A DNA stretch of 64,000 bases, taken from NCBI GenBank assembly GCA_947629925.1, contig CANRFO010000009.1:1-64000 (forward strand), in the 5' to 3' direction. The notes beneath the pieces were generated by a model that did not search any database, was not told the origin of the DNA, and worked only from the letters and a program-made list of their open reading frames with translations. This document shows, in pieces, positions 22,305-46,140 of this stretch (positions are counted from its first letter, which is position 1; each line of letters starts with the position of its first letter). The position numbers and the translations under genes were made by a program. The stretch is from an uncultured Ruminiclostridium sp. (GTDB lineage: Bacteria; Bacillota; Clostridia; Oscillospirales; Ruminococcaceae).

Positions 22305-22387
22305 CATCACCCAAAAATCTATTTAGCAACGACATCACATCCGCTGAGCAGCATCAAAAACGCTCCCATACCATGGGAGCATTTTTT
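22305..22387 (+). repeat. tRNA-tail repeat, copy A
   Basis: Conserved block CACCCAAAAATCTATTTAGC with ACGACATCAC, followed by the hairpin GCTCCCAT/ATGGGAGC at 22362-22380 and TTTTTT. It belongs to the family at 23535, 35277 and 46059. It lies 200 bp after tRNA-Gln and abuts the 3' end of the carboxypeptidase gene. Confidence 0.65.
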
Positions 22388-22399
22388 ATTCCTACCTTT

Positions 22400-23248
22400 T
22401 CATATATAATCTTTTATCAATGAAAGCGTAAGTTTATATCTTTCCGAATCCGTTTTACAGCCTGTCACTATTGAGATATAGGTTTTTCCATCAATATAAA
22501 ACACAGCCGCAAGACAGTTGCCGGCGCGATTAGTCGTTCCTGTTTTAAGACCTGCTGCATTTTCGTTGTAGAACTTGCTTTCAGGATCAAGCAGTTTATT
22601 GGAATTTGTCCATGTGATACACTCGCCTGATTCAAATACCACGAATTTTTCATGAGCAGAAGCGATTTCACATATCTCAGGCATTGACAGAGAATATTCT
22701 GCAAGCTTGACCAAATCGGCGGCTGTTGTATATTGAGCCGTATCATCCCAACCGTCGGGATTTACAAAATTACTGTTTTCCATGCCTATTTGATGAGCCG
22801 TTTCGTTCATAAGCTGACAAAACAGTTTTACTGCTTCGTTATCCTGAATTTCACTTTCAGAATAAACCGCTCTTGCCGTTGAAACTGCGACCGTGTATGC
22901 GGCGTCGCTGCCTGACGCCATTAACATTCCCGTTATCAGATCGTACAATGTGAGCTGCTGACCTTTTAAGATAAGGCAAAGGCTCGAATGTATATTGACC
23001 AGATCCTGTTCAGTGCCTACTGTAAGTACACTGTCAGGATCCATATATTTTAACGCAGTACACGCTGTAAGCAGTTTAGTGATGCTCGCGCAGGATATAT
23101 GAGAGTTTTCGTTTTCTGCATATAGCACTTCTTTGTCTTCAACACAGTATAACAGCTTTGCCGAAGCACTTTCTTCCGTATCTGCGCATGCGGACAAAAA
23201 TATGCTCAGCAAACCGAATATGCATAAAAAAGCGATAAACTTTTTCAT
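22400..23248 (-). CDS. Lipoprotein D-alanyl-D-alanine carboxypeptidase (S11/DacF type)
   Basis: Penicillin-binding hydrolase that trims peptidoglycan stem peptides. A lipoprotein signal ends at lipobox LSAC (Cys21). Catalytic motifs of the peptidase S11 fold are SITK (nucleophile Ser and Lys), SGS in place of the usual SxN (ASGSDAAYT), and KTGTT. The 282-residue length indicates the catalytic domain only, without the C-terminal PBP5 domain or an anchoring helix; the lipid replaces the latter. AAAGGAAGG precedes the ATG, and a promoter lies at 23289-23318. Confidence 0.9.
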   Translation of the reverse strand: MKKFIAFLCIFGLLSIFLSACADTEESASAKLLYCVEDKEVLYAENENSHISCASITKLLTACTALKYMDPDSVLTVGTEQDLVNIHSSLCLILKGQQLTLYDLITGMLMASGSDAAYTVAVSTARAVYSESEIQDNEAVKLFCQLMNETAHQIGMENSNFVNPDGWDDTAQYTTAADLVKLAEYSLSMPEICEIASAHEKFVVFESGECITWTNSNKLLDPESKFYNENAAGLKTGTTNRAGNCLAAVFYIDGKTYISIVTGCKTDSERYKLTLSLIKDYI

Positions 23249-23288
23249 ATATCAGCCTTCCTTTTAAAAAATTTGTCATATTTTTTAA

Positions 23289-23318
23289 ATTATAGCATGT
23301 TGAAAAATTTGTTGTCAA
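23289..23318 (-). promoter_or_regulatory. Promoter of the carboxypeptidase gene
   Basis: Minus strand TTGACA (23318-23313), 18 bp, TATAAT (23294-23289). The remaining stretch from 23319 to about 23500 is A+T-rich and shows no gene or repeat. Confidence 0.65.
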
Positions 23319-23504
23319 TGAAATAAGTATGAATATCATAAAAATGTAAGATTTAAAAATTGTTTATGAAAATTTAGCAATACTTTCTGTTCTGAATATT
23401 AAAACCACAATTCAGTTATGAAAATGCAGGAATAAATTTAAGAGCCGAAATCAGTTTAAAGCCGCTGAATTTATTGACAGAAAAAGATTTTTTGTCTATA
23501 ATAT

Positions 23505-23535
23505 AAAAAACATGTTTCCTTTGCTCAGAAACATG
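23505..23535 (-). terminator. Distal terminator of tRNA-Leu
   Basis: On the minus strand CATGTTTC/GAAACATG closes a hairpin followed by TTTTTTAT. It lies about 110 nt beyond the tRNA 3' end, after the tRNA-tail repeat. Confidence 0.75.
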
Positions 23536-23643
23536 ATGAGGTCATTTAAATGCTGTAATATTGTTACCAAAAAGATTTTTGGCAGTGAACATAAAAGTAC
23601 GCTCCCGTGAATTGGGAGCGTGTCGAGTGCAGCGTCACGCTGC
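23536..23643 (-). repeat. tRNA-tail repeat, copy E (after tRNA-Leu)
   Basis: Directly after the encoded CCA: hairpin GCAGCG-TGA-CGCTGC, then hairpin CGCTCCC/GGGAGCG (23600-23620), then the block CCAAAAATCTTTTTGG with ACAATAT. The first roughly 48 nt are almost identical to those after tRNA-Trp at 35277. Confidence 0.75.
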
Positions 23644-23726
23644 TGGTACGGGTAACAGGACTTGAACCTGCACGGTTGCCCATCGGAACCTAAATCCGAC
23701 GCGTCTGCCAATTCCGCCATACCCGC
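23644..23726 (-). tRNA. tRNA-Leu (anticodon TAG)
   Basis: Acceptor GCGGGTA/TACCCGT (terminal G-U pair), class II long variable arm, anticodon stem CGGA/TCCG with loop containing UAG, T arm GGTTCAAGTCC, discriminator A and encoded CCA. It reads CUA. Confidence 0.93.
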
Positions 23727-23815
23727 ATATAATATAAACATAGTTTTTATTAACACATTTATATTTCTGTTATACTCTAACACAATTTTTTTCAAATGTC
23801 AAGAAGGAGCATATA

Positions 23816-24979
23816 ATGACAAAACTTCTTATGCGTCTTTTTATAAAGCGGAACGGCGACGCGGAAGATCCGAATGTCCGCAGACAATACGGCTTTTTGT
23901 CGGGTATTGTCGGCATAATTGTGAATATACTGCTGTTTGTGTGCAAGTTTATTGTAGGTACGGCTTCAGGAGCGGTTTCGGTTGTTGCCGATGCTCTAAA
24001 TAACTTATCTGACGCAGGTTCGTCGGTCGTCAACATGGTCGGCTTTAAAATAGCCTGCTCGCCTCCTGACAGGGAACACCCTTTCGGACACGGGAGAGCA
24101 GAGTATGCGGCAGGACTTATAATATCTTTTTTTATTGTACTTATCGGAGCGGAACTGGCTATATCTTCGGTTGAAAGAATATTTTCAGCTTCCGTTCCTG
24201 AATTTGACTGTTTTACCTTTATCGTTCTGTCAGCTTCCGTATTGCTCAAGCTATGGCTTTTCTTCTTCAACAGGGAACTCAGCCGAAAGATAAATTCAGT
24301 GCCTTTGAAAGCGACTGCTTTTGACAGTATATCTGACGTGGCGGCTACTGTTTTTGTGCTTTTGGGAATAGGTGCGAACATCATATTTTCCTTTAATTTA
24401 GATGCATATATCGGGCTGCTTGTCGCTGGATTTATAATTTTTTCAGGAGTCAAAACCGCTAAGGAAAGCCTTTCGCCGCTGCTGGGGCAGATGCCTGATA
24501 AAAATTTTGTGCAGGATATAAAGGAGACAGTATGTTCATTTGACGGCATAATAGGGATCCATGACCTTATGATACACAACTACGGAGCGGGGAGAAGCAT
24601 AATTTCTCTTCATGCGGAAGTGCCGTCGTCAATGACTCTTACAGAGGCTCATTCTGTGATAGATAAGGCAGAATCTGAGCTTAAATGCAAATTCAACTGT
24701 GTTGCGGTCATACACATCGACCCTGTGGACGTTGGCGACGAAAGAGCGATTCTTCTTCAAAACCGTATAAAAATGATGATAAAAGCAATTGACCCTGCCC
24801 TTTCCATTCACGATTTCAGGCTAAAAGACCTGACTGTGAGCTTTGACATTGTAATGCCGTATAAGTTCCGTCTGACGGAGGAACAGCTCGGCAGCTCTGT
24901 GTTATCGGGTATAAAAGCGATAGATGACAGCATGATTCCTTTGATAAATATCGAAAGGCAGTTTACAGAGCTTGACTAA
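23816..24979 (+). CDS. Cation diffusion facilitator family transporter
   Basis: Proton-coupled divalent metal efflux protein with six membrane helices followed by a cytosolic ferredoxin-like domain (387 residues). The second helix carries DALNNLSD and the fifth DSISDVAAT, the paired metal-site acidic motifs. HPFGHGRAEYAAGL is the conserved loop between helices 2 and 3. The metal (Zn, Mn, Fe or Co) cannot be decided; the Asn in the helix-2 site argues for a non-canonical or Mn-type site. AAGGAGC precedes the ATG. The downstream promoter overlaps its stop codon. Confidence 0.9.
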   Translation: MTKLLMRLFIKRNGDAEDPNVRRQYGFLSGIVGIIVNILLFVCKFIVGTASGAVSVVADALNNLSDAGSSVVNMVGFKIACSPPDREHPFGHGRAEYAAGLIISFFIVLIGAELAISSVERIFSASVPEFDCFTFIVLSASVLLKLWLFFFNRELSRKINSVPLKATAFDSISDVAATVFVLLGIGANIIFSFNLDAYIGLLVAGFIIFSGVKTAKESLSPLLGQMPDKNFVQDIKETVCSFDGIIGIHDLMIHNYGAGRSIISLHAEVPSSMTLTEAHSVIDKAESELKCKFNCVAVIHIDPVDVGDERAILLQNRIKMMIKAIDPALSIHDFRLKDLTVSFDIVMPYKFRLTEEQLGSSVLSGIKAIDDSMIPLINIERQFTELD

Positions 24980-25000
24980 CACTGTAAATTGTGGTAAAAT
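24972..25000 (+). promoter_or_regulatory. Promoter of the tmk operon
   Basis: TTGACT (24972-24977), 17 bp, TAAAAT (24995-25000). The -35 overlaps the last codons of the CDF gene. Confidence 0.6.
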
Positions 25001-25045
25001 TACTATATGTGTTGATATTCTACCGATATGGAACGGAGATATAAA

Positions 25046-25702
25046 GTGGCAAGTAAACTTATTGTTATAGAAGGTCTTGACGGAGGGGGCAAAACAACTC
25101 AGCTCGAACTGCTTAAAAAAGATTATCCCGATTTCAGATTTATAACGTTTCCGAATTACAGCTCTCCTTCGGGACAGATCGTGAGCAATTATCTCAGCGG
25201 CGTTTACAATGAAAAGGATAACTCCGTCAGTGCTTATACGGCGAGCAGTTTTTATGCGATCGACCGTTATACAAGCTTTAAAACCGATTGGGAAAAGGAT
25301 TACAAAGAGGGAAGAACGATAATTTCAGCCCGCTATGTGAGCAGCAACGCTATTTATCAAATGACCAAGCTTCCGAGTGAAAAATGGGCTGAATACATGG
25401 ACTGGCTTTTTGACATTGAGTATAATAAATTTTCTATACCGAGACCCACATCGACTATTTTCCTTGATATGCCTGTTGAAGTGTCAAGAAAGCTTCTCTT
25501 AAAGCGTTATAACGGCGACGTTGAAAAGCTGGACGCTCATGAGAGTGATCTTGATTTTATGAATGCCTGCCGTAAGGCCGCGCTTTACGTTGCAGAAAAG
25601 GAAAACTGGCATATTATAAGCTGCGCTGAAAACGGTCTCCCGAAGCCTATCGAAGCAATACATGAGATGATCAAGGAAGCAATAGAGAAACTTCTCGGAT
25701 AA
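25046..25702 (+). CDS. tmk: Thymidylate kinase
   Basis: Phosphorylates dTMP to dTDP. P-loop VIEGLDGGGKTTQ, the thymidine-binding FPNYSSPSG and YTASSFYAIDRY replacing the DRY/DRH motif region, and a lid-type segment near ARYVSSNAIYQ. Start: GTG at 25046 lies eight bases after GGAG (25034-25037) and gives the usual N-terminus just before the P-loop. The ATG at 25028 would place that GGAG inside the gene. At 218 residues it is the normal size. It heads a run of six genes to 30457. Confidence 0.87.
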   Translation: MASKLIVIEGLDGGGKTTQLELLKKDYPDFRFITFPNYSSPSGQIVSNYLSGVYNEKDNSVSAYTASSFYAIDRYTSFKTDWEKDYKEGRTIISARYVSSNAIYQMTKLPSEKWAEYMDWLFDIEYNKFSIPRPTSTIFLDMPVEVSRKLLLKRYNGDVEKLDAHESDLDFMNACRKAALYVAEKENWHIISCAENGLPKPIEAIHEMIKEAIEKLLG

Positions 25703-25708
25703 ATAAAT

Positions 25709-26584
25709 ATGCTGGAATTTTATAATATAAGAATAGAGGATAAAGAGTGGGTTAAACCGCTGCTTGCTTTTTCGGACTTCAGGGGCTGCGAGTACACATT
25801 CGGAAATAATTTTCTTTGGGCAGACGCTTATGACATAAAAATTTCCCGCTACAAGGATTTCTATCTGGTGAAAAGCGGCGACGGTTTTTTCTATCCCGCG
25901 GGTCAGGGCGATATTGCTGAAGTTATCGAAATTTTGAAAGCGTATTGTAGATCACGCAGTATGCCGTTCAGGATCATAAGCTCTCCCAAAGTCGGAATGG
26001 AACGTCTGAAGGAAATGTACGGCGACAAAATAAATGTAACATCAAAAGAAGATTATTTTGATTATTGTTATAATTACAACGACCTGTCTTTTCTTGCGGG
26101 GAAAAAATTCCATTCAAAAAGGAATTTTATAAACCGTTTTGAAACCCATAGCTGGACTTATGAAGAAATAAGCAGCGATAATATAAGCGAGTGCTATAAT
26201 ATCCTTGAGCTTTGGAGCAAAGAAAACCGTGCGAACGAAAGTGCTGCCATAGCTGAAGAGGTATCTGTTGCCGCAAAGGGCCTTGACAGTTTTTTCAGGC
26301 TTGATTTTAGCGGCGGACTGTTGAAAGCGGAGGGCATTCCCGTTGCTTTCACTTATGGTGAGCATTTGAACAGCGACACTTTTGATGTTCATGTTGAAAA
26401 AGCGCTGTCCCTTTACGACGGTGCATATCCCATGATAAACAAGCAGTTTGTAAGCCGCTTGGACAATGGATACAAGTATATAAACCGCGAAGAGGATATG
26501 GGCGAGGAAAACCTGAGAAAGGCTAAGCGCTCATATCACCCTGCGTTTATGGAAGAAAAATTTATAATATCGTTTAAAGACTGA
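25709..26584 (+). CDS. DUF2156 protein (phosphatidylglycerol lysyltransferase C-terminal-like)
   Basis: A 291-residue soluble protein with a tandem GNAT-like fold as in the catalytic part of MprF and FemX-type proteins. Seen motifs are FRGCEYTFGNNFLW near the N-terminus, KKFHSKRNFINRF mid-chain and YKYINREEDMGEENLRKAKRSYHP at the C-terminus, which are typical of DUF2156. It has no membrane segments, unlike MprF. The substrate is unknown; an aminoacyl-tRNA-dependent or acyl transfer is likely from the family. It follows tmk by six bases. Confidence 0.8.
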   Translation: MLEFYNIRIEDKEWVKPLLAFSDFRGCEYTFGNNFLWADAYDIKISRYKDFYLVKSGDGFFYPAGQGDIAEVIEILKAYCRSRSMPFRIISSPKVGMERLKEMYGDKINVTSKEDYFDYCYNYNDLSFLAGKKFHSKRNFINRFETHSWTYEEISSDNISECYNILELWSKENRANESAAIAEEVSVAAKGLDSFFRLDFSGGLLKAEGIPVAFTYGEHLNSDTFDVHVEKALSLYDGAYPMINKQFVSRLDNGYKYINREEDMGEENLRKAKRSYHPAFMEEKFIISFKD

Positions 26585-26595
26585 AAGGAGCAGAC

Positions 26596-27138
26596 ATGAT
26601 ATATTGTTTTTTGGCAGACGGATTTGAGGAAATGGAAGCGCTCTGTCCTGTGGATATTCTCCGCAGAGGAGAATGTGAGCTGCTTACCGTTGGCGTCGGC
26701 GAGGAGATCATTACAGGTTCTCACGGCATAAGCGTGTGTGCGGATATAACTGCCGCAGAAATTGTTCTTGACGACAGCCTTGATATGATAATTCTTCCCG
26801 GCGGAATGCCCGGAACGCTCAACCTTGAGAAAAATCTTTATGTGCAGAAGGCTATTGATTTCTGCGCTGAGAACAATAAGTACATCGCCGCTATCTGCGC
26901 CGCACCGTCCATACTCGGACACAAAGGATTACTGAAAGATCGTTCTGCGATCTGTTTCCCCGGCTTTGAGGAACAGCTCAACTGCAAAACGTTGTCAGAC
27001 GATCATGTATGCGCTGACGGAAATATAATCACCGCCAAAGGCGCAGGCGTAGCTCAGGAATTTGGCTTGAAGCTCCTCGAAAAGCTGAAGGGCAAGGCTG
27101 CATCAGATAAGGTAAAAGCGTCGATACAATGCAGATAA
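26596..27138 (+). CDS. DJ-1/PfpI family protein (YajL/ThiJ-like)
   Basis: A 180-residue class I glutamine amidotransferase-fold protein. The conserved Glu lies in DGFEEMEA and the nucleophile Cys in AAICAAPSILG, with GGMPG as the oxyanion-side loop. Family members act as glyoxalases, protein repair factors or chaperones; which applies here is not evident. AAAGGAG precedes the ATG, and the end overlaps fau by 10 bp. Confidence 0.9.
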   Translation: MIYCFLADGFEEMEALCPVDILRRGECELLTVGVGEEIITGSHGISVCADITAAEIVLDDSLDMIILPGGMPGTLNLEKNLYVQKAIDFCAENNKYIAAICAAPSILGHKGLLKDRSAICFPGFEEQLNCKTLSDDHVCADGNIITAKGAGVAQEFGLKLLEKLKGKAASDKVKASIQCR

Positions 27139-27686
27139 AGTCTGAACTCAGAAAAAAACTTCTTTCGGAAAGAAGTGCTCTTTCGCCTGCTTTTTGCGAG
27201 CAAGCAGGCAAGGCGGCTGCAAAGAACCTGTTTTCTTTTCCTTCATTTTTGACTGCCGATCTTGTTTTATGCTATATCAGCGTTAATTCCGAGCTTCCTA
27301 CACGTGAAATAATAGAGTATTGCTTCCGAAACGGAAAGCCTGTTGCGGCTCCTGTTTGTATGGGAGATGATATGTCGTTCAGAAAAATAACAAGTTTTGA
27401 TGAACTGAAAACAGGCGCCTTTTCGATACCTGAACCTGATATAAGCTGTTCAGATGTTGTCATTACATCTGATACAGTCTGCCTTGCACCTGCGCTCTGC
27501 TATAATGGGAAAGGCTATCGTATAGGCTACGGAAAAGGATATTACGACAGATTTTTCAAAAATTCCACATGCAAGAGGATAGGGCTTTGTTATGACGATT
27601 TTATCAGAGAATTTCCTCCTGATTCTGATGACGAAGCTGTTCAGACGATAATAACCCAGAAAAGGATTATCAGCATAGATCCATGA
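27129..27686 (+). CDS. fau: 5-formyltetrahydrofolate cyclo-ligase
   Basis: ATP-dependent conversion of 5-formyl-THF to 5,10-methenyl-THF, recycling a folate storage form. The 185-residue protein has the N-terminal KSELRKKLLSERSALS and the signature GYGKGYYDRFF preceded by ALCYNGKGYRI. It overlaps the preceding DJ-1 gene by 10 bp. Confidence 0.92.
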   Translation: MQIKSELRKKLLSERSALSPAFCEQAGKAAAKNLFSFPSFLTADLVLCYISVNSELPTREIIEYCFRNGKPVAAPVCMGDDMSFRKITSFDELKTGAFSIPEPDISCSDVVITSDTVCLAPALCYNGKGYRIGYGKGYYDRFFKNSTCKRIGLCYDDFIREFPPDSDDEAVQTIITQKRIISIDP

Positions 27687-27725
27687 GATAAGGCTTGTGC
27701 CAATGCACATTGAAAGGAAAGTCAG

Positions 27726-29195
27726 ATGGACGACAGAAATGAGAACGAGCTGTTTGACATGCTCAGCAAAAATAAAGAGCGCGCACATAAAGAGCAGAGA
27801 TCTGCCGAAGCTCATAACGGCGTAGAGAAGGCAGAAGCAGGCAAAGAAAACCCGTATGCTTTCGGTTCTTCATTTGCAGAAACTTCCGAGTATGAAACTA
27901 TGGATCTGCATGACATTGATTTTGACGATACAGACAATACGGAAGAAGAACGGACCGTTAAAGCTGCGGAAGAGAAAACAGAAAAGAAATATGATAAAAA
28001 TGACGCTTCAAATGATGAATACGATTATGAGAATGATGCGGACGTCATTGAAGCGGAAAATCAGCTGTATAAACACAAGCAAAGCCGTAAAACCGCTTTA
28101 CAGGTTTTTCTTGGTCTGCTGATTTCCGCAGCGATCATTTTTATCGGCGTATCTCTCGGAAATAAGCTTTTGGGTATTGTTCTGGATTATACGGGAATAA
28201 ATACGAATGAGTTTGAAGTATTAGTAGATATACCTGATGACCCGACATTAAATCAAGTCTCCGACGCGCTTGAATCCAGCGGTATAATCACCGAACCGCG
28301 GATTTTTAAGATGTATGTTGAGATGAAAGAAAGACAGGACGATTTTGTAGGCGGTACGTTTACATTGTCCTCCGCTATGAGTTACAGCAATATTTTGGAC
28401 ACTCTCCTTGCGTCAAAAAATGCTGTGATCACAGTGGAAGTTACGATAATCGAAGGAATGACTGCGGCTGAGATCGGAGAGCTTCTTGAGGAAAATTCCG
28501 TGTGCAGGGCTGAGGATTTTGCGCAGTATTATCGCAGCAAGCTGAATAAATTTGATTTTGAAAGGCGCATCAATGAAAGCAGGGTCAAATTCAATCAGAT
28601 GGAAGGTTATCTTTATCCCGACAAATATGAGTTTTATGTAAACAATGAGCTAAAGGAAGACCCTGACGCCGAGATCGATACTTCGGAGGATGCAAGAGCT
28701 GCTGCTGAAAAGATATATTCAAACTTCAACTCCAAAATTTCCAAATCAATGTATAAAAAGATGAACGAAATGGGCTTTACTCTCGACGAGCTTATCGCAT
28801 TGGCATCTATGGTTCAGAAGGAAGTCGCTTCTCCCGAAGATATGCAGAACGTTGCTTCTGTTTTCTTGAACCGTCTGCATAACAGTGAAAGTTTTCCGCA
28901 CCTTCAGTCTGATGCCACCGTCTTTTACGTTCAGAACGATATTGAGCCGTACTACAATTCGTCTGACTTTTTGTCGTCTCTTGAAACGATATCCAATTCC
29001 TATGATACCTATGAGGCGGTAGGGATACCCGCAGGAGCAATATGCAGTCCGGGAATGGACGCTATAAACGCCGTGCTTTACGCTCCCGAAACGAATTATT
29101 TCTACTTCTGTGCAAACGACGAGGGCAAAACATTTTTCGCCAGTACAGAGGAAGAACATAATGCCAATCTTGTAGAAGCGGGTCTTGCTTCTTAA
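27726..29195 (+). CDS. mltG: Endolytic transglycosylase MltG
   Basis: Cleaves nascent peptidoglycan glycan strands and sets strand length. Residues 1-115 are a long, acidic, low-complexity cytoplasmic region, longer than in E. coli. A single membrane helix at about 118-140 follows, then a LysM-like region and the YceG catalytic domain. The catalytic Glu is in MEGYLYPDKYEF; ALASMVQKEV, ASVFLNRL and LQSDATVFY are family hallmarks. In Bacillus the homologue yrrL also precedes U32-family genes, so the order is conserved. Confidence 0.92.
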   Translation: MDDRNENELFDMLSKNKERAHKEQRSAEAHNGVEKAEAGKENPYAFGSSFAETSEYETMDLHDIDFDDTDNTEEERTVKAAEEKTEKKYDKNDASNDEYDYENDADVIEAENQLYKHKQSRKTALQVFLGLLISAAIIFIGVSLGNKLLGIVLDYTGINTNEFEVLVDIPDDPTLNQVSDALESSGIITEPRIFKMYVEMKERQDDFVGGTFTLSSAMSYSNILDTLLASKNAVITVEVTIIEGMTAAEIGELLEENSVCRAEDFAQYYRSKLNKFDFERRINESRVKFNQMEGYLYPDKYEFYVNNELKEDPDAEIDTSEDARAAAEKIYSNFNSKISKSMYKKMNEMGFTLDELIALASMVQKEVASPEDMQNVASVFLNRLHNSESFPHLQSDATVFYVQNDIEPYYNSSDFLSSLETISNSYDTYEAVGIPAGAICSPGMDAINAVLYAPETNYFYFCANDEGKTFFASTEEEHNANLVEAGLAS

Positions 29196-29202
29196 ATAAA
29201 AC

Positions 29203-29230
29203 AGCGGCGTTTGTTAAACAAATGCCGCTT
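29203..29230 (+). terminator. Hairpin between mltG and the U32 gene (attenuator-like)
   Basis: Stem AGCGGCGTTTGTT/AACAAATGCCGCT with one G-U pair and a 1-nt loop. Only TTAAAAA follows, so it is a weak terminator or mRNA processing/stability hairpin 20 nt before the next gene. Confidence 0.5.
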
Positions 29231-29248
29231 AAAAATGTGAGGGATAAT

Positions 29249-35202: not shown

Positions 35203-35276
35203 AGGGGTGTGGTTCAATGGTAGAATAGGGGTCTCCAAAACCTTTGACGTGGGTTCGATTCCTACCACCCCTGCCA
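35203..35276 (+). tRNA. tRNA-Trp (anticodon CCA)
   Basis: Acceptor AGGGGTG/CACCCCT, D arm GTTCAATGGTAGAA, anticodon loop CTCCAAA (CCA), T arm GTGGGTTCGATTCCTAC, discriminator G and encoded CCA. The anticodon stem has two G-U pairs. Confidence 0.93.
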
Positions 35277-35515
35277 GCAGCGTGTCGCTGCACCCAACAC
35301 GCTCCCATATCACGGGAGCGTTATTTTTTGCTTATCACCCAAATATCTTTTTTGGTCACGATCTCACACCTGCGTGACGCTGGACCCAATGCGCTCTCAG
35401 GAAACTGAGAGCGCATTTGTATGTCCTGCTTGCTTTAAAATCTATTTGGTCACGATATCCCAGCTGCCGAGCGGCAAAAATACGCTCCCAATCCGCGGGA
35501 GCGTATTTTTATTTT
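35277..35515 (+). repeat. tRNA-tail repeats, copies B and C in tandem (after tRNA-Trp)
   Basis: This 328-bp gene-free stretch is filled by the repeat family. In order: hairpin GCAGCG-TGT-CGCTGC; hairpin CGCTCCC/GGGAGCG (35300-35320) with TTTTTT; block CACCCAAATATCTTTTTTGG plus TCACGATCTC; hairpin GCGCTCTCAG/CTGAGAGCGC (35391-35414); block AAAATCTATTTGGTCACGAT plus ATC; hairpin TACGCTCCC/GGGAGCGTA (35481-35505) with TTTTT. The last hairpins can terminate the tRNA transcript; the rest to 35604 shows nothing. Confidence 0.75.
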
Positions 35516-35604
35516 ATAATTTTCTCTTCTGCCCAAGCGTTTATTCAGCAAAAATTGAATGGATCAGCTGCTCCGAACAGCTCTGTTCTTGATTAGACTC
35601 GGTT

Positions 35605-39042: not shown

Positions 39043-39129
39043 GGCTGCAACAGGAGCATAAGCAAATGAACGGTATTTTTCCATTAAATTTAAATATGGA
39101 TTTACTTTATTTAATAAGTAAAATTTTTC

Positions 39130-39158
39130 TTGACATAAGGAAAAATTTATGCTATAAT
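39130..39158 (+). promoter_or_regulatory. Consensus promoter of rpsO
   Basis: Perfect TTGACA (39130-39135), 17 bp, TATAAT (39153-39158). Confidence 0.85.
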
Positions 39159-39161
39159 ATG

Positions 39162-39277
39162 TTCGCTGTTTGAAAATCAGCGAAATACCTGCCCTCGGCT
39201 TTGCGGAGCATGCCCTTTCGGGAAGCACCTTTTCCCTTAGCTGAGTGTATGGAAATAATTTTAAATGAGGTGTAAAA
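39162..39277 (+). promoter_or_regulatory. Structured rpsO leader, probable S15 autoregulatory RNA
   Basis: The 115-nt leader starts with hairpin TTCGCTG/CAGCGAA (39162-39184). It then contains GCATGCCC-TTTC-GGGAAGC and a further potential arm before GAGG at the start codon. S15 leaders that bind their own product are known in many bacteria with varied structures. Assignment here rests on position and foldability, not on a motif match. Confidence 0.5.
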
Positions 39278-39544
39278 ATGTTACTGAAAGAAGAAAAAAC
39301 CGCTATTATCGAAGCGAACCGCACACACGAAAACGACACGGGTTCTCCCGAAGTCCAGATCGCAATTCTCACTAAGAGGATTTCCGACCTTACTGAGCAT
39401 CTGAAAACTCATAAGAAAGACCATCATTCCCGCCGCGGTCTGCACAAGATGGTAGGTCACAGACGCAACCTGCTCAATTATCTGCAGAAAAAGGACATTG
39501 AGCGTTACCGTGCAGTTATCGCAAAGCTGGGTATCCGCAAGTAA
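39278..39544 (+). CDS. rpsO: 30S ribosomal protein S15
   Basis: Primary 16S rRNA-binding protein of the small-subunit platform. The 88 residues are the standard length, with the signature [28 protein letters not shown] and HRRNLLNYL. It has its own consensus promoter, a structured leader and a strong terminator, then pnp follows, the classic rpsO-pnp order. Confidence 0.97.
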
Positions 39545-39555
39545 ATTTGTTGCCG

Positions 39556-39585
39556 AAGGGCAGAACAGGCGTTCTGCCCTTTTTG
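39556..39585 (+). terminator. Terminator after rpsO
   Basis: Perfect 11-bp stem AAGGGCAGAAC/GTTCTGCCCTT with loop AGGC, followed by TTTGGG. Some read-through to pnp is possible because no other clear promoter is seen before pnp. Confidence 0.8.
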
Positions 39586-39633
39586 GGTATATTTCGGAAT
39601 TTTATTTCAGAGATATTCCCCTAAAATAAAATT

Positions 39634-39778
39634 TTGAGGAAGGCTGTCTGTTCCTAAAAAAGTGTACACAAATTTCAGCCCGAAACCGCTGTAAATGCAT
39701 TTTCGGTTTCATCAACGCCGCCGCTCTTGCGGGTTGAAATTTGTTGACACTTTTAAGGAGTCAGCCGCCTTTCCTCAA
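39634..39778 (+). promoter_or_regulatory. Long-stem leader of pnp
   Basis: Outer stem TTGAGGAA-GGCTG (39634-39646) pairs with CAGCC-TTCCTCAA (39762-39778). The main stem has 39657-39681 pairing with 39730-39754 over 25 bp, with only a 2-nt mismatch and one G-U pair. The apical stem is GAAACCG/CGGTTTC (39682-39710). The structure ends 6-8 nt before the AAAGGAG of pnp. It is analogous in position and form to the RNase III-processed pnp leader of E. coli; function is inferred. Confidence 0.7.
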
Positions 39779-39795
39779 GGAAAAGGAGAAAAAAG

Positions 39796-41928
39796 ATGTT
39801 TGAAAATTACAAGGTTTTCAAGACCACATTTGCAGGCAGAGAGCTGACCGTTGAAACGGGAAAGACCTGCGGGCTCGCTAACGGCTCTTGCTGGGTGCGC
39901 TACGGCGAATCTGTCGTTATGGTAAACGTGACCGCCAGCGAAAAGCCCCGTGAGGGAGTAGACTTCTTCCCGCTGTCCGTTGACTATGAGGAAAAGCTCT
40001 ATTCCGTGGGCAAGATCCCCGGCAGCTTCCTTAAGAGAGAGGGCAGACCCAGTGAGAAGGCTATTCTTGCCTCCCGTGTAGTTGACCGCCCTATGCGCCC
40101 CCTGTTCCCCAAGGATATGAGGAACGACGTTTCCATAGTTATGACTGTGCTTGCGGTAGACCCTGACACGCAGCCTGAGATAATCGCTATGATAGGCGCG
40201 TCTATTGCCGTTTCAATTTCGGATATTCCCTGGAACGGTCCTATCGGCGGTATTTCTGTGGGACTTGTTGACGGAGAGATAATCCTTATGCCTGACGCTG
40301 AGCAGAGAGCAAAGTCTGATCTTCAGCTCACCGTTGCTTCCAGTGAAAAGAAAGTCGTTATGATAGAGGCGGGAGCAAACGAAGTGGACGACGACACTAT
40401 GCTTGACGCTATAATGAAGGGTCACGAGGAGATAGTGCGCTCACTTATTCCTTTCATAAACAGCATTAAGGACGAGATAGGAAAGCCCAAGTTCACCTTT
40501 GAATCAATGGACGTTGACCACGATCTGTTCGAGGAGATAAAGGCAAAGTACACCGACAAGGTGAAATTCGCTCTTGATACTGACGACAAGAACGTTCGTG
40601 AGGCAAGGCTCCAGCCTATCAAGGACGAGATACACGCAGAATATGACGAGGCGTGGTCTGAGCAGATTCCTATGATAGACGAGTGCATTTATAAATTGCA
40701 GAAGGTCATCGTTCGCCGCTGGCTCTTAGACGAGCAGAAGCGTGTTGACGGCAGAGGAATGGACCAGATGAGACCGCTTGCCGCTGAGGTGGGACTTCTG
40801 CCCCGTGTTCACGGCTCAGGTCTTTTCACAAGAGGTCAGACGCAGGTGCTTACAATAACTACCCTCGGTCCTGTCAGTGACGCACAAAAGCTGGACGGAC
40901 TGGACGACGAGGAGTTTAAGCGCTATATGCACCACTATAACTTCCCCTCCTACTCCGTTGGCGAAACAAAGCCCAGCAGAGGTCCGGGACGCCGTGAGAT
41001 AGGTCACGGTGCGCTGGCGCAGAGAGCCTTGGAGCCTGTTATTCCCTCGGTTGAGGAATTCCCTTATGCTATAAGGCTTGTATCTGAGGTGCTTTCCTCC
41101 AACGGTTCTACCTCGCAGGCATCTATCTGCGGCTCAACACTGTCGCTGATGGACGCGGGCGTTCCCATAAAGGCGCCTGTTGCAGGTATTTCCTGCGGAC
41201 TTATCACCGAGGGTGACCGCTGGATGACTATGGTGGACATTCAGGGCCTTGAGGACTTCTTCGGAGATATGGACTTTAAGGTGGGCGGTACTCACAAGGG
41301 TATCACCGCTATACAGATGGATCTGAAGATAGATGGTCTTACTCCCGAAATTATAAAGGACGCTTTTGCAAAAACGCACAAAGCCCGTGATTATATACTT
41401 GACGAGATAATCCTGAAGGCTATTCCCGAGCCTCGTCCCACCGTCAACAAGTGGGCGCCCAAGATGATCTCAATGAAGGTGCCTGTTGACAAAATAAGAG
41501 AGGTTATCGGCACGGGCGGAAAGGTTATACAGAAGCTGTGCGCCGATTATGAGGTCAAGATAGACATTGACGACGACGGCAACGTGTTCATCTGCGGTCT
41601 GGACGACCAGAAGTCCAAGGACTGCGTGGATATGATAAACGCTATCGTTATGGTGCCTGAGATAGGCTCTATCTACAAGGGCAAGGTAGTGAGAGTTACA
41701 GGCTTCGGCGCGTTCGTTGAGTTTGCTCCCGGCAAGGAAGGAATGGTACACATTTCCGAGCTGGAAAACAGACGTGTTGAAAAGGTGGAGGACGTTTGCA
41801 ACGTTGGCGATGAGATAATCGTTAAGATAATCAAGATCGACCAGCAAGGCAAGATAGGTCTTTCCAGAAAAGAGGCTCTTGCGGATATCGAAAGAAAACG
41901 CAAGGAAAAAGCGGAGCAGGGTGAATAA
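39796..41928 (+). CDS. pnp: Polynucleotide phosphorylase
   Basis: Phosphorolytic 3'-5' exoribonuclease of RNA decay. The 710 residues carry two RNase PH domains (first about 1-215; second about 300-530, with SSNGSTSQASICG and DFFGDMDFKVGGT), a linking helical domain, a KH domain with VIGTGGKVIQKL and an S1 domain with YKGKVVRVTGFGAFVEF. AAAGGAG precedes the ATG. The leader forms a long stem suited to autoregulation. Confidence 0.97.
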   Translation: MFENYKVFKTTFAGRELTVETGKTCGLANGSCWVRYGESVVMVNVTASEKPREGVDFFPLSVDYEEKLYSVGKIPGSFLKREGRPSEKAILASRVVDRPMRPLFPKDMRNDVSIVMTVLAVDPDTQPEIIAMIGASIAVSISDIPWNGPIGGISVGLVDGEIILMPDAEQRAKSDLQLTVASSEKKVVMIEAGANEVDDDTMLDAIMKGHEEIVRSLIPFINSIKDEIGKPKFTFESMDVDHDLFEEIKAKYTDKVKFALDTDDKNVREARLQPIKDEIHAEYDEAWSEQIPMIDECIYKLQKVIVRRWLLDEQKRVDGRGMDQMRPLAAEVGLLPRVHGSGLFTRGQTQVLTITTLGPVSDAQKLDGLDDEEFKRYMHHYNFPSYSVGETKPSRGPGRREIGHGALAQRALEPVIPSVEEFPYAIRLVSEVLSSNGSTSQASICGSTLSLMDAGVPIKAPVAGISCGLITEGDRWMTMVDIQGLEDFFGDMDFKVGGTHKGITAIQMDLKIDGLTPEIIKDAFAKTHKARDYILDEIILKAIPEPRPTVNKWAPKMISMKVPVDKIREVIGTGGKVIQKLCADYEVKIDIDDDGNVFICGLDDQKSKDCVDMINAIVMVPEIGSIYKGKVVRVTGFGAFVEFAPGKEGMVHISELENRRVEKVEDVCNVGDEIIVKIIKIDQQGKIGLSRKEALADIERKRKEKAEQGE

Positions 41929-42094
41929 AAATAAAGGGCGGTTAAGCCGCACCACTTCTTCAGCTAATGAGAGTTAGAAGCCAAGGAATAATGACACCCA
42001 TGCGATTTTACGCCTGCTTCGACTCCACACTGATAAAAAAGTGTACAAATAATTTGAGGCAATATTTTCACAATTTTTGAGTATTAAAAAACAA

Positions 42095-42121
42095 AACCCC
42101 CTGCTCAGCAGGGGGTTATTT
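42095..42121. terminator. Bidirectional terminator between pnp and gapA
   Basis: Stem AACCCCCTG/CAGGGGGTT with a 5-nt loop. TATTTTT follows on the plus strand and TTTGTTTTTT on the minus strand. The 165-bp pnp 3' region before it holds no gene. Confidence 0.85.
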
Positions 42122-42138
42122 TTACCTAATCAGCCATA

Positions 42139-43176
42139 TTAGCCGAGTTCAGCAAAATACTTGATGGTTCTTACCATCTGTGAAGTGTAGGAGTTCTCGT
42201 TATCGTACCAGGAAACTACCTGAACCTCATACAGGTCGTCAGCGATATGTGAAACCATAGTCTGAGTAGCGTCAAACAGAGAACCGTAGGTCATACCGAT
42301 AACGTCAGAGGAAACGATAGGATCCTCGTTGTAGCCGTAGGAAGCGGAAGCGGCAGCCTTCATAGCGGCGTTTATTGCTTCCTTGGTAACGTCAGCCTTC
42401 TTGACAACAGCGGTCAGGATCGTGGTGGAGCCTGTGGGAACAGGAACACGCTGAGCGGAACCGATGAGCTTGCCGTTCAGTTCGGGGATAACAAGACCGA
42501 TAGCCTTAGCAGCGCCTGTGCTGTTAGGAACGATGTTGGCAGCGCCCGCTCTTGCTCTTCTCAGATCGCCCTTTCTGTGAGGACCGTCGAGGATCATCTG
42601 GTCGCCTGTGTAAGCGTGAATGGTGGACATGATACCGCTCTGGATAGGAGCGTAGTCGTTAAGAGCCTTAGCCATAGGAGCAAGGCAGTTTGTAGTGCAG
42701 GAAGCGGCAGAAATGATCTGGTCGTCCTTGGTAAGAGTGTTCTCGTTTACGCTGTAAACGATAGTCTTAAGGTCGTTGCCTGCGGGAGCGGAGATAACGA
42801 CCTTCTTAGCGCCTGCGTTGATGTGAGCCATGCTCTTGTCCTTGGAGCAGTAGAAGCCTGTGCATTCCAGAACAACGTCTACGCCCAGGTCGCCCCAGGG
42901 AAGATCCTTAGCGTCCTTCTCAGCGTAAATCTTGAGGGTCTTGCCGTCTACGGTGATAGTGCCTGCCTCATCGTCAGCGGCAACAGTGTGAAGATTGTCA
43001 CCGATCCTTCCGCAGTAACCGCCCTGAGCGGTATCGTACTTGAGCAGGTGAGCCAGCATAGAGGGCTTGGTCAGGTCGTTGATAGCAACTATCTCGTAGC
43101 CTTCTGCGCCGAACATCTGACGGAACGCAAGTCTGCCGATACGACCGAAACCGTTGATTGCAACTTTAACAGCCAT
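42139..43176 (-). CDS. gapA: Glyceraldehyde-3-phosphate dehydrogenase, type I
   Basis: NAD-dependent glycolytic enzyme. The 345-residue chain opens [19 protein letters not shown] (NAD fold), the catalytic Cys is in [17 protein letters not shown], and [16 protein letters not shown] closes it. AGGAGG lies eight bases before the ATG. It is monocistronic here, with its own promoter at 43233-43261, not linked to pgk-tpi as in many Firmicutes. Confidence 0.97.
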
Positions 43177-43232
43177 TGGAATATTCCTCCTGAATTTTGT
43201 ATTTTGATACTTGAGTATTTGTATCCTTATAT

Positions 43233-43261
43233 ATTATACTAAAATTTTTATGAATAATCAA
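43233..43261 (-). promoter_or_regulatory. Promoter of gapA
   Basis: Minus strand TTGATT (43261-43256), 17 bp, TATAAT (43238-43233). Confidence 0.65.
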
Positions 43262-43331
43262 GGGGTATTGGAAATTTTTGTTTGAAAAACTTCTGATTTG
43301 GAAAATAAGTCTTTTTAATGCCGCTTATACC

Positions 43332-43360
43332 TTGAATATAAGAAGAAACTATGCTATCAT
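43332..43360 (+). promoter_or_regulatory. Candidate promoter of the sigma/anti-sigma operon
   Basis: TTGAAT (43332-43337), 17 bp, TATCAT (43355-43360). No ECF-type GAAC box was recognised here. Confidence 0.45.
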
Positions 43361-43443
43361 ATTTCCGATTTAAAAAAATTCTGCGAGAAATATCAGTTTT
43401 ATTCGTCTAATAAATGAAAGGGAAAACAGAAAGGAGGAGACCG

Positions 43444-43998
43444 ATGGACAACGGAGCAAACAGCTACCGCCGATTTCTTGATGGTGACAGGGACGGTATG
43501 GTAGATATAATAAAGGATTATAAAGACGGTCTTATTTTTTATCTGAATACTTTTATAGGAAATATCACTCTTTCCGAAGAGCTTATGGAGGAGGTCTTTG
43601 TGAAGCTTGTGACAAAAAAGCCTCGTTTCAAAGGAAAAAGCTCCTTCAAAACGTGGCTTTATGCCATAGGCAGGAATATTGCCATAGACTATATCCGTCA
43701 CCGTTCAAAGCTTTCAGAAACACCGATGGAGGAATTGTATGATGAGGCACAGGAAGAAAGCGCCGAATGTTCATACATAAGAGAGGAGGACAAGCTGCTT
43801 CTTCACAATGCGATGCGTGATTTGAACCCCGAATATCGTCAGGTGCTTTACCTGATATTTTTTGAGGGATTTGACAACGGTGAGGCGGCTTTGGTGATGA
43901 AAAAAAGCAAGCGTCAGATAGAAAACCTTGTTTACCATGCGAAAATATCGCTTAGAACAAAACTTGAACAGGAGGGTTTTATTTATGAAGAACTATGA
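43444..43998 (+). CDS. ECF-type RNA polymerase sigma factor
   Basis: A 184-residue extracytoplasmic-function sigma factor with region 2 (about 15-85, including LMEEVFVKLVTKKPRFKGKSSFKTWLY read as separate stretches of that segment) and region 4 (about 125-175, LNPEYRQVLYLIFFEGF then an HTH at ALVMKKSKRQIENLVYHA). The ATG at 43444 follows AAAGGAGG by eight bases. The next gene overlaps it by 14 bp and looks like its anti-sigma factor. Confidence 0.9.
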   Translation: MDNGANSYRRFLDGDRDGMVDIIKDYKDGLIFYLNTFIGNITLSEELMEEVFVKLVTKKPRFKGKSSFKTWLYAIGRNIAIDYIRHRSKLSETPMEELYDEAQEESAECSYIREEDKLLLHNAMRDLNPEYRQVLYLIFFEGFDNGEAALVMKKSKRQIENLVYHAKISLRTKLEQEGFIYEEL

Positions 43999-44884
43999 AG
44001 AGGTCGCAAAAAGTGTTTTTGAGAAGAGCGAAAAATATTTTGAACATAGAAAAAAATGCATGAGAATTGTTAAAACGGTGACGATCTCTCTGTCATGCCT
44101 TATTCTGGGAGTAACCGCCGTATCCGCAGCGGCTGCGCTGAAGACTCCCTATAATGTGCCTGAAGAAAGTATTTTGTCCGAATATACCGCGATTTCCTCA
44201 CAGTCAGACACGGCGGATATTACTGTTACTTCTGAAGATAGTACAGACACAGAAGAAAACAATGCCGAAGTAACCGAATATACGGAAGATCCCGATATTG
44301 CCGTGGATACAGGCGAGCCTGTCCCACCTGTGGAAACTTCCGTAAATGAAGACCTTGAATGGCTTACACCTGAGGAAATATCTTTTGACACCAACGGCGG
44401 AGGTTTCGGCGTCAACAGTCCGTTTCTTATTGCTTATAACGGAGCGCTTTATGTGGGCTATGATCCTGAAGACGAAAAAACAGACCGATATTATGCGCTT
44501 ACAGGTGATATGGTACAATTATCCGAGCGGTATAACACCCCCGCATATGCTGTGAAAGATGAGCCGAATCTTATAGGAGTATTTTTCAATTTCGGAGTAT
44601 CGGAATACAGACGTCTTTTCACCTGTCAGTTTGATTTGGACGGAGTTAATTATGAAATATCATACAGCCCTATCAAGGACATAGATCTCACCTGCGGTGA
44701 AAAGGTTCTGGAAACAGATGATTATACGGTATTTGAAGCACTTGATATGCAAGGAGAGCCGATACAGGGAAAATATCTTGTAAATCTTTTTCCTTTGATA
44801 CAAGCGGAATTACCGAACTTGTTTAATGAAGCTGAAAAAGAAACTTACTCAGACATATGGTGGGTAGCTGTTCCCACCGAATAA
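43985..44884 (+). CDS. Putative membrane anti-sigma factor
   Basis: A 299-residue protein. Residues 1-25 are a short cytoplasmic segment (MKNYEEVAKSVFEKSEKYF), far shorter than an ordinary zinc anti-sigma domain. One membrane helix (about 28-48, ending in an Ala-rich stretch) follows, then a Ser/Thr/Glu/Asp-rich spacer (about 55-115) and a globular extracellular domain. The start at 43985 overlaps the sigma gene. The role as anti-sigma is inferred from overlap and topology; the extracellular domain is not recognised and may be the sensor. Confidence 0.7.
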   Translation: MKNYEEVAKSVFEKSEKYFEHRKKCMRIVKTVTISLSCLILGVTAVSAAAALKTPYNVPEESILSEYTAISSQSDTADITVTSEDSTDTEENNAEVTEYTEDPDIAVDTGEPVPPVETSVNEDLEWLTPEEISFDTNGGGFGVNSPFLIAYNGALYVGYDPEDEKTDRYYALTGDMVQLSERYNTPAYAVKDEPNLIGVFFNFGVSEYRRLFTCQFDLDGVNYEISYSPIKDIDLTCGEKVLETDDYTVFEALDMQGEPIQGKYLVNLFPLIQAELPNLFNEAEKETYSDIWWVAVPTE

Positions 44885-44899
44885 GACGGAAATAAGACT

Positions 44900-44932
44900 G
44901 TGAGGGAGTCTGTAAAGGCTCCTTCACTTTTT
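44900..44932 (+). terminator. Terminator of the sigma/anti-sigma operon
   Basis: Stem GTGAGGGAG/CTCCTTCAC (one G-U pair), 10-nt loop, followed by TTTTTG. Confidence 0.75.
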
Positions 44933-44978
44933 GATATTGATCTGATGCTGTTCTCTGTCATGAATTTGACGTACAGTT

Positions 44979-45779
44979 TTAGATATTTTTATTCATGCTT
45001 CCCATTTTATAACCGCCCAGATCCAATGTTACATAAGTGAACCCAAGCTCCTGAAAATAGTTATTCAGCTCATCTGCGGCGTTGATTATCTTCCCGAATT
45101 CCGCAGGCTCCACTTCAATACGGGCGATCTTTCCGTGTATCCTTACCCTGACCTGATGAAATCCCATATCAAGAAGTTTTTGCTCCGCCTTATCCACCAT
45201 TCTCAGTTTTTCCTCAGTAATAGTCTCTCCGTAAACAAATCTTGAAGCAAGGCAGGCGAAGGATTGCTTATCCCATGTTGAAAGCCCCATTTCCTTTGAT
45301 AAAGCCCTGATATCCGCTTTTGAAAGTCCTGCTTCTCTGAGTGGGCTTTTTATGCCGAGTTCTGCAACCGCCGTAAGTCCCGGGCGGTAGTCCCCGTTAT
45401 CATCAAGGTTAGAACCTTCCGCAACATATTCGATACCGTTTTCCGCCGCTATTTTCTTTATTTTTGTAAAAAGCTCCCGCTTGCACAGGTAGCAGCGGTT
45501 TTTGGGATTTTGCGCAAAGCCTTCGATAGAAAGCTCCTCTGATTCCACAATGATATGACGTATTCCTTCCTTTTTGCAGAAGCTCTTTGCTTCGTTCAGC
45601 TCCCTTTGCGGAAATGAACAGGAGCAGGCTGTGACTGCGATCGCTTTATCTCCAAGCAAATCATGTGCTGTTTTAAGCAGGAATGTAGAATCTACGCCTG
45701 ATGAAAACGCCACTGCAACGCTTCCCAGCCCTTTTATATACTCACAGAGATTTTGCTGTTTCTGATTCAAAGTATCCAT
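44979..45779 (-). CDS. larE: ATP-dependent sulfur transferase LarE
   Basis: PP-loop enzyme that adds sulfur to pyridinium dicarboxylate for the nickel-pincer cofactor of lactate racemase and relatives. The 266-residue chain has the ATP pyrophosphatase loop VAFSSGVDSTFLLK, NRCYLCKRELF and QSFACLASRF. The CxxC plus third Cys pattern fits the cluster-type LarE that carries [4Fe-4S], rather than the sacrificial single-Cys type; this is my inference. larA, larB and larC are absent from the window. Confidence 0.9.
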   Translation of the reverse strand: MDTLNQKQQNLCEYIKGLGSVAVAFSSGVDSTFLLKTAHDLLGDKAIAVTACSCSFPQRELNEAKSFCKKEGIRHIIVESEELSIEGFAQNPKNRCYLCKRELFTKIKKIAAENGIEYVAEGSNLDDNGDYRPGLTAVAELGIKSPLREAGLSKADIRALSKEMGLSTWDKQSFACLASRFVYGETITEEKLRMVDKAEQKLLDMGFHQVRVRIHGKIARIEVEPAEFGKIINAADELNNYFQELGFTYVTLDLGGYKMGSMNKNI

Positions 45780-45905
45780 TTTGACATTCCTTTGTAATTT
45801 TCTGATAATATTATAATTCTTTTTCTTTCAAAAAGCAAGCCCCGCTGTCGGATAAAATAGCGCTGCTTATATTTTATAAAGTTGTAAAAAATTTCTTTTT
45901 TTCCC

Positions 45906-45934
45906 TTGACAAGCAATCTTCAAAAGAGTATAAT
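45906..45934 (+). promoter_or_regulatory. Consensus promoter of tRNA-Arg
   Basis: Perfect TTGACA (45906-45911), 17 bp, TATAAT (45929-45934), 29 bp before the tRNA. Confidence 0.85.
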
Positions 45935-45963
45935 GTAATAGTGTCCCGCAAGAAAAGGTAAAT

Positions 45964-46040
45964 GCGCCAATAGCTCAGCTGGATAGAGTGACTGGCTACG
46001 AACCAGTAGGTCGGGGGTTCGAATCCCTCTTGGCGTGCCA
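45964..46040 (+). tRNA. tRNA-Arg (anticodon ACG)
   Basis: Acceptor GCGCCAA/TTGGCGT (terminal G-U), D arm, anticodon stem CTGG/CCAG with loop CTACGAA (ACG, read as ICG), T arm GGGGGTTCGAATCCCTC, discriminator G and encoded CCA. Confidence 0.95.
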
Positions 46041-46058
46041 GTGGCATAACACCGAATC

Positions 46059-46140
46059 AAATACGCTCCCAATCCATGGGAGCGTATTTTTCGTTAATTG
46101 CCAAAATCTTTTTTCACGATATCGCAGCAGATGAGCCGCT
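46059..46140 (+). repeat. tRNA-tail repeat, copy D (after tRNA-Arg)
   Basis: Hairpin ATACGCTCCC/GGGAGCGTAT (46061-46087) with TTTTT, then block TTGCCAAAATCTTTTTTCAC plus GATATCGCAGCAG. The stretch from 46141 to 46386 is A+T-rich and carries only the promoter of the next gene. Confidence 0.7.

Follow-up and report, generated by a model that had tools for sequence, protein, structure and literature searches.

tRNA genes are classic landing sites for genomic islands, with tyrosine integrases as the enzymes, and in staphylococci the SCC elements use the serine recombinases CcrA/B/C and the 3′ end of rlmH as their single chromosomal site. Here we describe short cassettes that lie directly behind tRNA genes in a 64,000-nt stretch of DNA from an uncultured Ruminiclostridium sp. 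(Ruminococcaceae; assembly GCA_947629925.1, contig CANRFO010000009.1, positions 1 to 64,000 of the forward strand), referred to below as the window. An initial annotation made from the sequence of the window had pointed to repeats at tRNA-Leu, tRNA-Trp and tRNA-Arg and near tRNA-Gln, and all four places hold the sequence it described. In our judgement, the repeats quite probably belong, as non-autonomous members, to a mobile cassette family whose integration is site-specific, precisely 3′ of the CCA of a tRNA or tmRNA gene, and whose full members carry a short recombinase together with cargo.

The cassettes are like SCC elements in their recombinase superfamily (serine), in insertion at the 3′ end of a gene, in tandem arrays, in having non-autonomous members and in defence cargo. 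SCC, however, uses one site (rlmH), whereas many tRNA and tmRNA 3′ ends, or right ends of cassettes, are used here, and the Ccr models are 442-558 aa long compared with ∼283 aa for the recombinase described below. The best NCBIfam match of this short recombinase is CcrB, with an E value of 1.9e-36 (NF047343, 125.8 bits against a cut-off of 900). We know of no ∼90-nt terminator-only cassettes in SCC. Integrons also form arrays in which each cassette ends in a recombination site and new cassettes enter proximally, but they use a tyrosine integrase with a folded attC and attI in place of a serine recombinase and tRNA ends. BOX, REP and MITE-like repeats are likewise short, hairpin-rich, non-coding and present in many copies; the present cassettes differ from them in their fixed docking at tRNA 3′ ends and in having a candidate autonomous partner. 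The islands treated in the accessible text of the Islander and TIGER reports (PMC4383910, PMC12424338) share with the cassettes integration at tRNA and tmRNA genes and tandem arrays, but they split and restore the tRNA gene. The cassettes, by contrast, insert behind CCA with no rebuilding, and their linked recombinase is a serine enzyme. According to the accessible text of the 2014 database paper, targeting of tRNA genes by serine recombinases was not known (PMC4383910), and no such case appears in the accessible portions of the TIGER/Islander note of 2025 (PMC12424338), Integrase-On-Demand (PMC12884075) or a review of integrative and mobilizable elements (IMEs; PMC5704250), a figure legend of which places the site of a serine-recombinase IME within a gene. 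No title or abstract on such tRNA-end cassettes was found in the open-access PMC literature, a corpus that leaves most subscription papers outside.

Terminator-like units inserted behind CCA

The unit family was recovered by reading tRNA tails, by BLAST and with a covariance model (CM) built from 14 units, which recovers all units in the window (Table 1). The type 1 unit is ∼90 nt long and often tandem, and its first base is the base after the tRNA CCA. It comprises, in order, a 13- or 15-nt hairpin (GCGGC-TGA-GCCGC, GCCGC-TGA-GCGGC and GCAGCG-TGA-CGCTGC are examples), a few bases, a CGCTCCC/GGGAGCG terminator with a T-run, and a right end near CACCCAAAAATCTWTTTGGTMACRATATCACA, with AAATCTTTTT as its core and CA mostly as its final letters. 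The repeats had initially been read as a hairpin-block-hairpin design; its parts are present, but the block is the right end of one unit and the hairpin beyond it is the start of the next. The unit behind tRNA-Leu(tag) has the GCAGCG/CGCTGC hairpin at +1, the CGCTCCC/GGGAGCG terminator and a right end ..AAAAATCTTTTTGGTAACAATATTACA. The tRNA-Trp tail, earlier counted as two to three units, holds three: the terminator of the second reads GCGCTCTCAG/CTGAGAGCGC, with both sides of the stem altered, and the third has the hairpin and terminator without a clear right end. Compared with dinucleotide shuffles, the Trp tail folds with a z score of −8.5 (0 of 200 shuffles equally good) and the Leu tail with −4.1 (1 of 200). 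The type 2 cassette behind tRNA-Gln(ctg) has a long terminator hairpin followed by a body with a TTTTGCTTCGCAAAAC hairpin and a right end ..AAAAATCTATTTAGCAACGACATCACA, and similar cassettes follow tRNA-Ser(gct) and tRNA-Arg(cct) and occur on contig C19. A 23-nt pattern of the block, with up to three mismatches, matched only the Trp copy within the window.

Table 1. Docking tRNA genes and cassette units in the window
Feature	Position	Strand	Basis
tRNA-Gln(ctg), docking tRNA	22029-22104	+	ARAGORN and Rfam
Type 2 cassette, 235 nt, behind tRNA-Gln(ctg)	22105-22339	+	read from sequence
Worn type 1 unit (hairpin and terminator) after the type 2 cassette	22340-about 22390	+	CM 36.2 bits (22340-22430)
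tRNA-Leu(tag), docking tRNA	23644-23726	-	ARAGORN
Single type 1 unit behind tRNA-Leu(tag)	23554-23643	-	CM 78.1 bits
tRNA-Trp(cca), docking tRNA	35203-35276	+	ARAGORN
Type 1 unit 1 of the Trp array, right end ..AAATATCTTTTTTGGTCACGATCTCACA	35277-35368	+	CM 70.7 bits
Type 1 unit 2 of the Trp array	35369-35462	+	CM 50.9 bits (35372-35462)
Type 1 unit 3 of the Trp array	35463-about 35515	+	CM 46.4 bits (35463-35545)
tRNA-Arg(acg), docking tRNA	45964-46040	+	ARAGORN
Type 1 unit behind tRNA-Arg(acg), first hairpin worn, right end ..AAAATCTTTTTTCACGATATCGCA	46041-46126	+	CM 45.9 bits (46054-46126)
Remnant hairpin (GCAGATGAGCCGC) of a second unit at tRNA-Arg(acg)	46127-46139	+	read from sequence

Tails were compared across the window's genome (G000; 2.37 Mb, 44 contigs, 46 tRNA matches) and two relatives (G005 and G029). 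By BLAST, the 60-nt tails of 22 of 43 tRNAs in G000, 23 of 44 in G005 and 20 of 41 in G029 are shared in register with a different isoacceptor (a few positives being simple repeats, not units). Only tRNAs that encode CCA and have 60 nt or more of sequence behind them entered the test, which removed 8 of 49 G029 entries, most of them from contig C16. At control offsets of 400, 500 and 600 nt further downstream, 0 of the 128 tails pooled from the three genomes were shared, and the sharing in G000 is therefore not a matter of chance. With an 89-nt consensus, 51 whole or partial matches were found in G000 at E≤1. Attachment to tRNA ends, as first described, thus covers part of the picture: three tandem units follow the CCA of tmRNA in G000, and some arrays lack a tRNA in front, several of which again start behind a ..CACA end. 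A CM search of the genome and its relatives, as proposed in the initial annotation, found units in 17 of 119 genomes (the window's own included), all within one genus. The copies number at least 37 in G000, at least 33 in G029 and at least 27 in G005, with few in most other genomes (lower bounds, 37 candidates being scored per genome), and this patchy copy number points to mobility. Viral contigs gave no match to the unit pattern, and in a collection of genome contigs it matched eight stretches, all in two metagenome-assembled genomes with isolate names starting ‘Lapin', which we take to mean rabbit gut. At the gathering score, Rfam matched only tRNA and tmRNA in the window and 12 loci.

The hairpins vary with compensation, and nine distinct fully paired first hairpins occur among 41 tails of the three genomes. 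In a hand-chosen alignment of 14 units, 94.7% of cells pair (shuffled mean 91.1), compared with at most 53.9% when the alignment is slid, and five pairs are changed on both sides, a number reached by 4 of 500 shuffles. The initial annotation also suggested tRNA-released small RNAs; the compensatory changes are what terminators or processing signals would lead one to expect.

Orthologous tRNAs often differ between species 3′ of CCA, and in six filled/empty pairs the sequences break exactly at CCA. The tRNA-Leu(cag) gene is empty in G029 (CCA followed by CCAGCG..) and carries inserts of 76 nt in G000 and 84 nt in G005, which end in ATCACA, with downstream DNA that is 96% identical over about 160 nt. 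Behind tRNA-Ser(cga), 91 nt are present in G029 and none in G005; behind tRNA-Ala(ggc), one unit is present in G029 and G005 is empty. At tRNA-Pro(tgg), a type 2 cassette of 228 nt in G005 separates CCA from the unit that adjoins CCA in G029, and at tRNA-Pro(cgg), G029 has two units between CCA and the type 3 element that adjoins CCA in G000. Finally, at tRNA-Ala(cgc) in G005 an element of 3,329 nt with a recombinase gene separates CCA from a unit. The new piece adjoins the tRNA in all six pairs. Across arrays, the first unit outscores the last against the CM in 15 of 19 (a ranking that used 108 of 144 CM matches, entered by hand, the 36 left out including weak matches and opposite-strand echoes). 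The earlier suggestion of a small mobile element at tRNA ends is borne out by these junctions in sister species and by recombinase elements at identical boundaries; duplicated tRNA tails, also proposed, would fit the tandem arrays and nothing else.

The two edges have just the letters CA in common, supplied by the tRNA (..CCA) on the left and by ..CACA, ..TACA or ..GACA on the right. CA precedes 77 of the 108 units, and these 77 include 34 at a tRNA end, where the tRNA itself supplies it. A two-base overlap suits serine recombinases rather than tyrosine integrases. No displaced tRNA 3′ fragment is found at the far end in the six pairs, the right ends of which share only CA with the tRNA.

On contig C3 of G000, at about 68200 (L077, 1608-1750), the 3′ half of tRNA-Leu(taa) is present as a copy followed by a unit. 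The intact tRNA-Leu(taa) is 11.4 kb away, much as though an ordinary tRNA island had parted the unit from its tRNA, and in G005 (L081) two units have a similar tRNA fragment in front of them. We infer that the tRNA fragments at G000 C3 and G005 C2 belong to other islands. Type 3 elements lie behind tRNA-Tyr, tRNA-Pro(cgg) and, by resemblance, tmRNA in G037 (L010 1684-1900, L027 1578-1900, L211 5480-5950).

Recombinase elements at the same boundaries

The 3,329-nt insert at tRNA-Ala(cgc) of G005 (L118) starts with AGTTGAAAGCTACATTTTTAGTGCA and ends with AAAAATCTATTTTGTAAAGGTTAGACA. It codes for a protein of 283 aa that has Resolvase and Recombinase domains and for an HD protein of 625 aa. A genus-wide search for the left end gave 16 matches (up to two mismatches) in 10 of 71 genomes, and the reversed control gave none. 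We considered 18 short-recombinase loci, namely the listed matches of at least 54% identity with a short or broken frame, minus one 56% fragment in G011. The left end immediately follows a tRNA CCA or a right end at 16 of these 18 listed loci. Nine follow CCA (Ala in G005, Gln in G033, Met in G037, Thr in G061, Leu(caa) in G252, G321 and G245, Gly in G173 and Leu(cag) in G210) and seven follow a right end (twice in G029, and in G037, G049, G000, G210 and G468); the remaining two have a transposase gene upstream (G343) or lie behind a CCA at which ARAGORN reports no tRNA (G018). Among the matches listed, eight loci in seven genomes and six genera are outside the window's genus, and the seven that fit represent five genera. 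At E≤1e-85 the recombinase family was met, again among the matches listed, in 10 of 396 genomes, 8 of them with a short frame, which suggests a wide spread of the short recombinase. Phage and plasmid records yielded, at E≤1e-30, only recombinases of under 60% identity.

Within the genus, a tRNA or right end lies at most 500 nt upstream of 6 of 6 short recombinases and of 0 of 24 more distant serine recombinases (39-50% identical, 18 with frames of at least 500 aa and 6 under 500 aa; in 4 of the 24 the start of the match stood in for a catalytic motif that was not located). All three intact short proteins scanned match PF00239 and PF07508, serine 13 is invariant in nine of nine aligned sequences, and the match to PDB 3g13 has an E value of 4.3e-39. 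In eleven aligned short proteins (∼283 aa) about 40 residues at most follow the Recombinase domain, whereas four relatives of 536-544 aa continue past it with a cysteine-containing and a helical part. In six computable pairs dN/dS was 0.03-0.14, and 0.07-0.14 in the three with dS below 1 (ten pairs were compared; four gave no dS and three more had dS above 1.6); the short recombinase is under purifying selection. All 20 distinct left ends fold as a long stem followed by T's (18 of 20 by a strict rule), and therefore a tRNA severed from its terminator would gain a new one.

Right ends link large and tiny members in another genus. In G210, four tandem cassettes of 166-173 nt, each starting with a hairpin and without a long reading frame, are directly followed by a recombinase element, and these small cassettes share with recombinase elements, but for one or two letters, the right end TTTTTTGTAAAGGTTAGACA. 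Right ends were found for ten recombinase elements, six of which (G005, G000, G029 C13, two in G210 and G018) have the type RE2 (..TGTAAAGGTTAGACA). A third type, or one near it, is seen in G468 and G245, the G468 element being flanked by two identical copies, another form occurs in G033, and only the element on G037 C89, with a frameshifted recombinase gene, has an RE1-like end, after which comes a type 1-like hairpin. The right end was not located for the G252, G321 and G061 elements. Recombinase elements sit behind RE1-type ends (..GGTCACAATATCACA) at five loci, and RE1 is hence a docking site.

Proposed mechanism and competing explanations

We propose that a cassette inserts exactly behind the CCA of a tRNA or tmRNA gene and that its leading terminator would substitute for the one severed from the tRNA. 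The crossover would join the CA of the tRNA end to the CA of the cassette right end, with no tRNA sequence copied, and the right end would become a fresh docking site, such that later cassettes build tandem arrays with the newest next to the tRNA. Full members would encode the ∼283-aa serine recombinase (resolvase and recombinase domains) and mostly anti-phage defence cargo. Boundaries and controls argue strongly that the short recombinase moves its own element; its enzymatic activity, the crossover dinucleotide and the mobilization of the tiny cassettes in trans, by the short or a related recombinase, are predicted. Direct comparison of sequences, on which the mobile-cassette reading rests, indicates that the phenomenon is real, general and mobile.

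A broader statement, which we regard as somewhat more probable than its negation, is that these elements constitute an unnamed integron-like system of gut Clostridia. It would use tRNA 3′ ends as universal ports, short serine recombinases, a CA crossover and right ends as the next port, spreading defences (dGTPase, TIR, Avs2-like, IetAS, DRT2, Cas3c-type CRISPR-Cas and others) and seeding ∼90-nt terminator cassettes behind about half of the host tRNA genes. If true, a serine recombinase family that lands harmlessly behind many tRNAs would represent a new answer to the use of safe sites by mobile DNA and a new vehicle for the transport of defence genes, and it would be a candidate tool where insertion at many natural safe sites is wanted. 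There is also a caution: what passes for a ‘tRNA terminator' in genomes of this kind can be mobile DNA.

Several observations weigh against the mobile-cassette reading. The weakest step is the mover of the window's own cassettes: the tiny type 1 and type 2 cassettes carry RE1, and most recombinase elements have other ends; the only close copy of the short recombinase in G000 is broken; and in G055, G035 and G030, which hold 16, 6 and 2 units, no serine recombinase was found at E≤1e-20, a pattern compatible with old copies that no longer move and also with another mover. The short recombinase is without the zinc-ribbon/coiled-coil C-terminal DNA-binding tail of well-studied large serine integrases. 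At the edges, some right ends finish in CG, not CA, and beyond CA no sequence common to tRNA ends and right ends was seen. Type 3 elements carry a right-end-like sequence reversed next to CCA, followed by a TTATGCCC../..GGGCATAA hairpin, and may be inverted or two-ended members. In the 14-unit alignment the number of pair types was not above that of shuffles (188 of 500), and mobility is read here from assembled sequences.

The step that concerns the mover is where a competing explanation fares best. Full-length large serine recombinases might move the units, the short-recombinase elements being passengers that share the site; we consider this unlikely. On G000 C4, G000 C19 and G033 C14, right-end-like sequences with units behind them are preceded by paired serine recombinases, and on G049 C111, which has four serine recombinases, about 4 kb separate the last of them from the right end and unit that come after it. 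Set against this are the proximity of a tRNA or right end to all six short and none of the 24 distant recombinases, and the purifying selection on the short one. The recombinase pairs themselves (L206 2592-7301, L207 9779-12680 and L219 1-14001, with a right-end-like sequence AAATCTTTTTTGTCAGT..CACA at C4 and G033 C14) are possibly larger elements that use the same ports.

Spread of tails by homologous recombination or gene conversion among tRNA flanks, with the terminator as a favoured module and no dedicated enzyme, is improbable. The units do resemble terminators, a terminator-like hairpin being present within the first 90 nt of 80 of 128 tails as opposed to 19 of 128 further down, and unequal exchange can make tandem copies, but the edges are base-exact at CCA and ..CA, and they are shared by very different bodies (types 1, 2, 3 and 4 and the recombinase elements). 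A retro-type mechanism, with reverse-transcribed copies primed by, or joined to, the tRNA 3′ end in the manner of SINE/LINE pairs with a common 3′ end, would account for copies that begin exactly at the tRNA CCA and share mainly the far end while their bodies vary. We consider it very improbable, because multi-kilobase elements with a serine recombinase and several genes share the edges, and the sole reverse transcriptase met (Drt2-like, G252; no search aimed at reverse transcriptases was made) looks like defence cargo. Single-strand transposition of hairpin repeats of the IS200/IS605 or REP/RAYT type, which the short, hairpin-rich repeats with fixed edges might recall, is the least likely of all, PF01797 (Y1 transposase) having no match in G000 while the control was positive in 5 of 14 known genomes.

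Cargo of the recombinase elements

Twelve of the 18 recombinase loci, not always with every gene, were scanned with PADLOC, and nine gave matches below 1e-30. The cargo includes a dGTPase in G005 (4e-85), TIR-TM in G029 (1.8e-94), Avs2 with a SIR2-like N-terminus in G033 (E 0), MkoC (helicase on the opposite strand) in G061, a PtuA-like ATPase with an FRG protein in G210, IetA and IetS in G343, a PD-T4-4-like ATPase in G468, the reverse transcriptase Drt2 in G252 and Cas3c in G018. The matches of AAA ATPases to PtuA or PD-T4-4 are at the family level only, and the cargo of G061, G343 and G252 was assigned by neighbourhood, the right end there not being located. The second copy in G210 has a weak match to PDC-S21 (1.8e-8). 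There was no PADLOC match for either protein of the G000 C19 element or for the one of two genes scanned at G037 C89.

The G000 C19 element (L072, 2683-4527) encodes these proteins of 211 and 356 aa, the latter with only a sub-cut-off Pfam hit, and by position the two are candidates for an undescribed defence pair. In G252 and G321, CRISPR-cas-like genes follow the recombinase elements docked at tRNA-Leu(caa), and in G018 they follow such an element and precede a right end (L249, L250 and L260); Cas3 of G252 and G018 was scanned (Cas3c), and the remaining cas genes were named by eye. On the G029 contig that was the source of most of the G029 entries dropped from the tail comparison (C16:1-2000, L156), tRNA genes are densely clustered and lack an encoded CCA; the contig may be that of a phage or plasmid.

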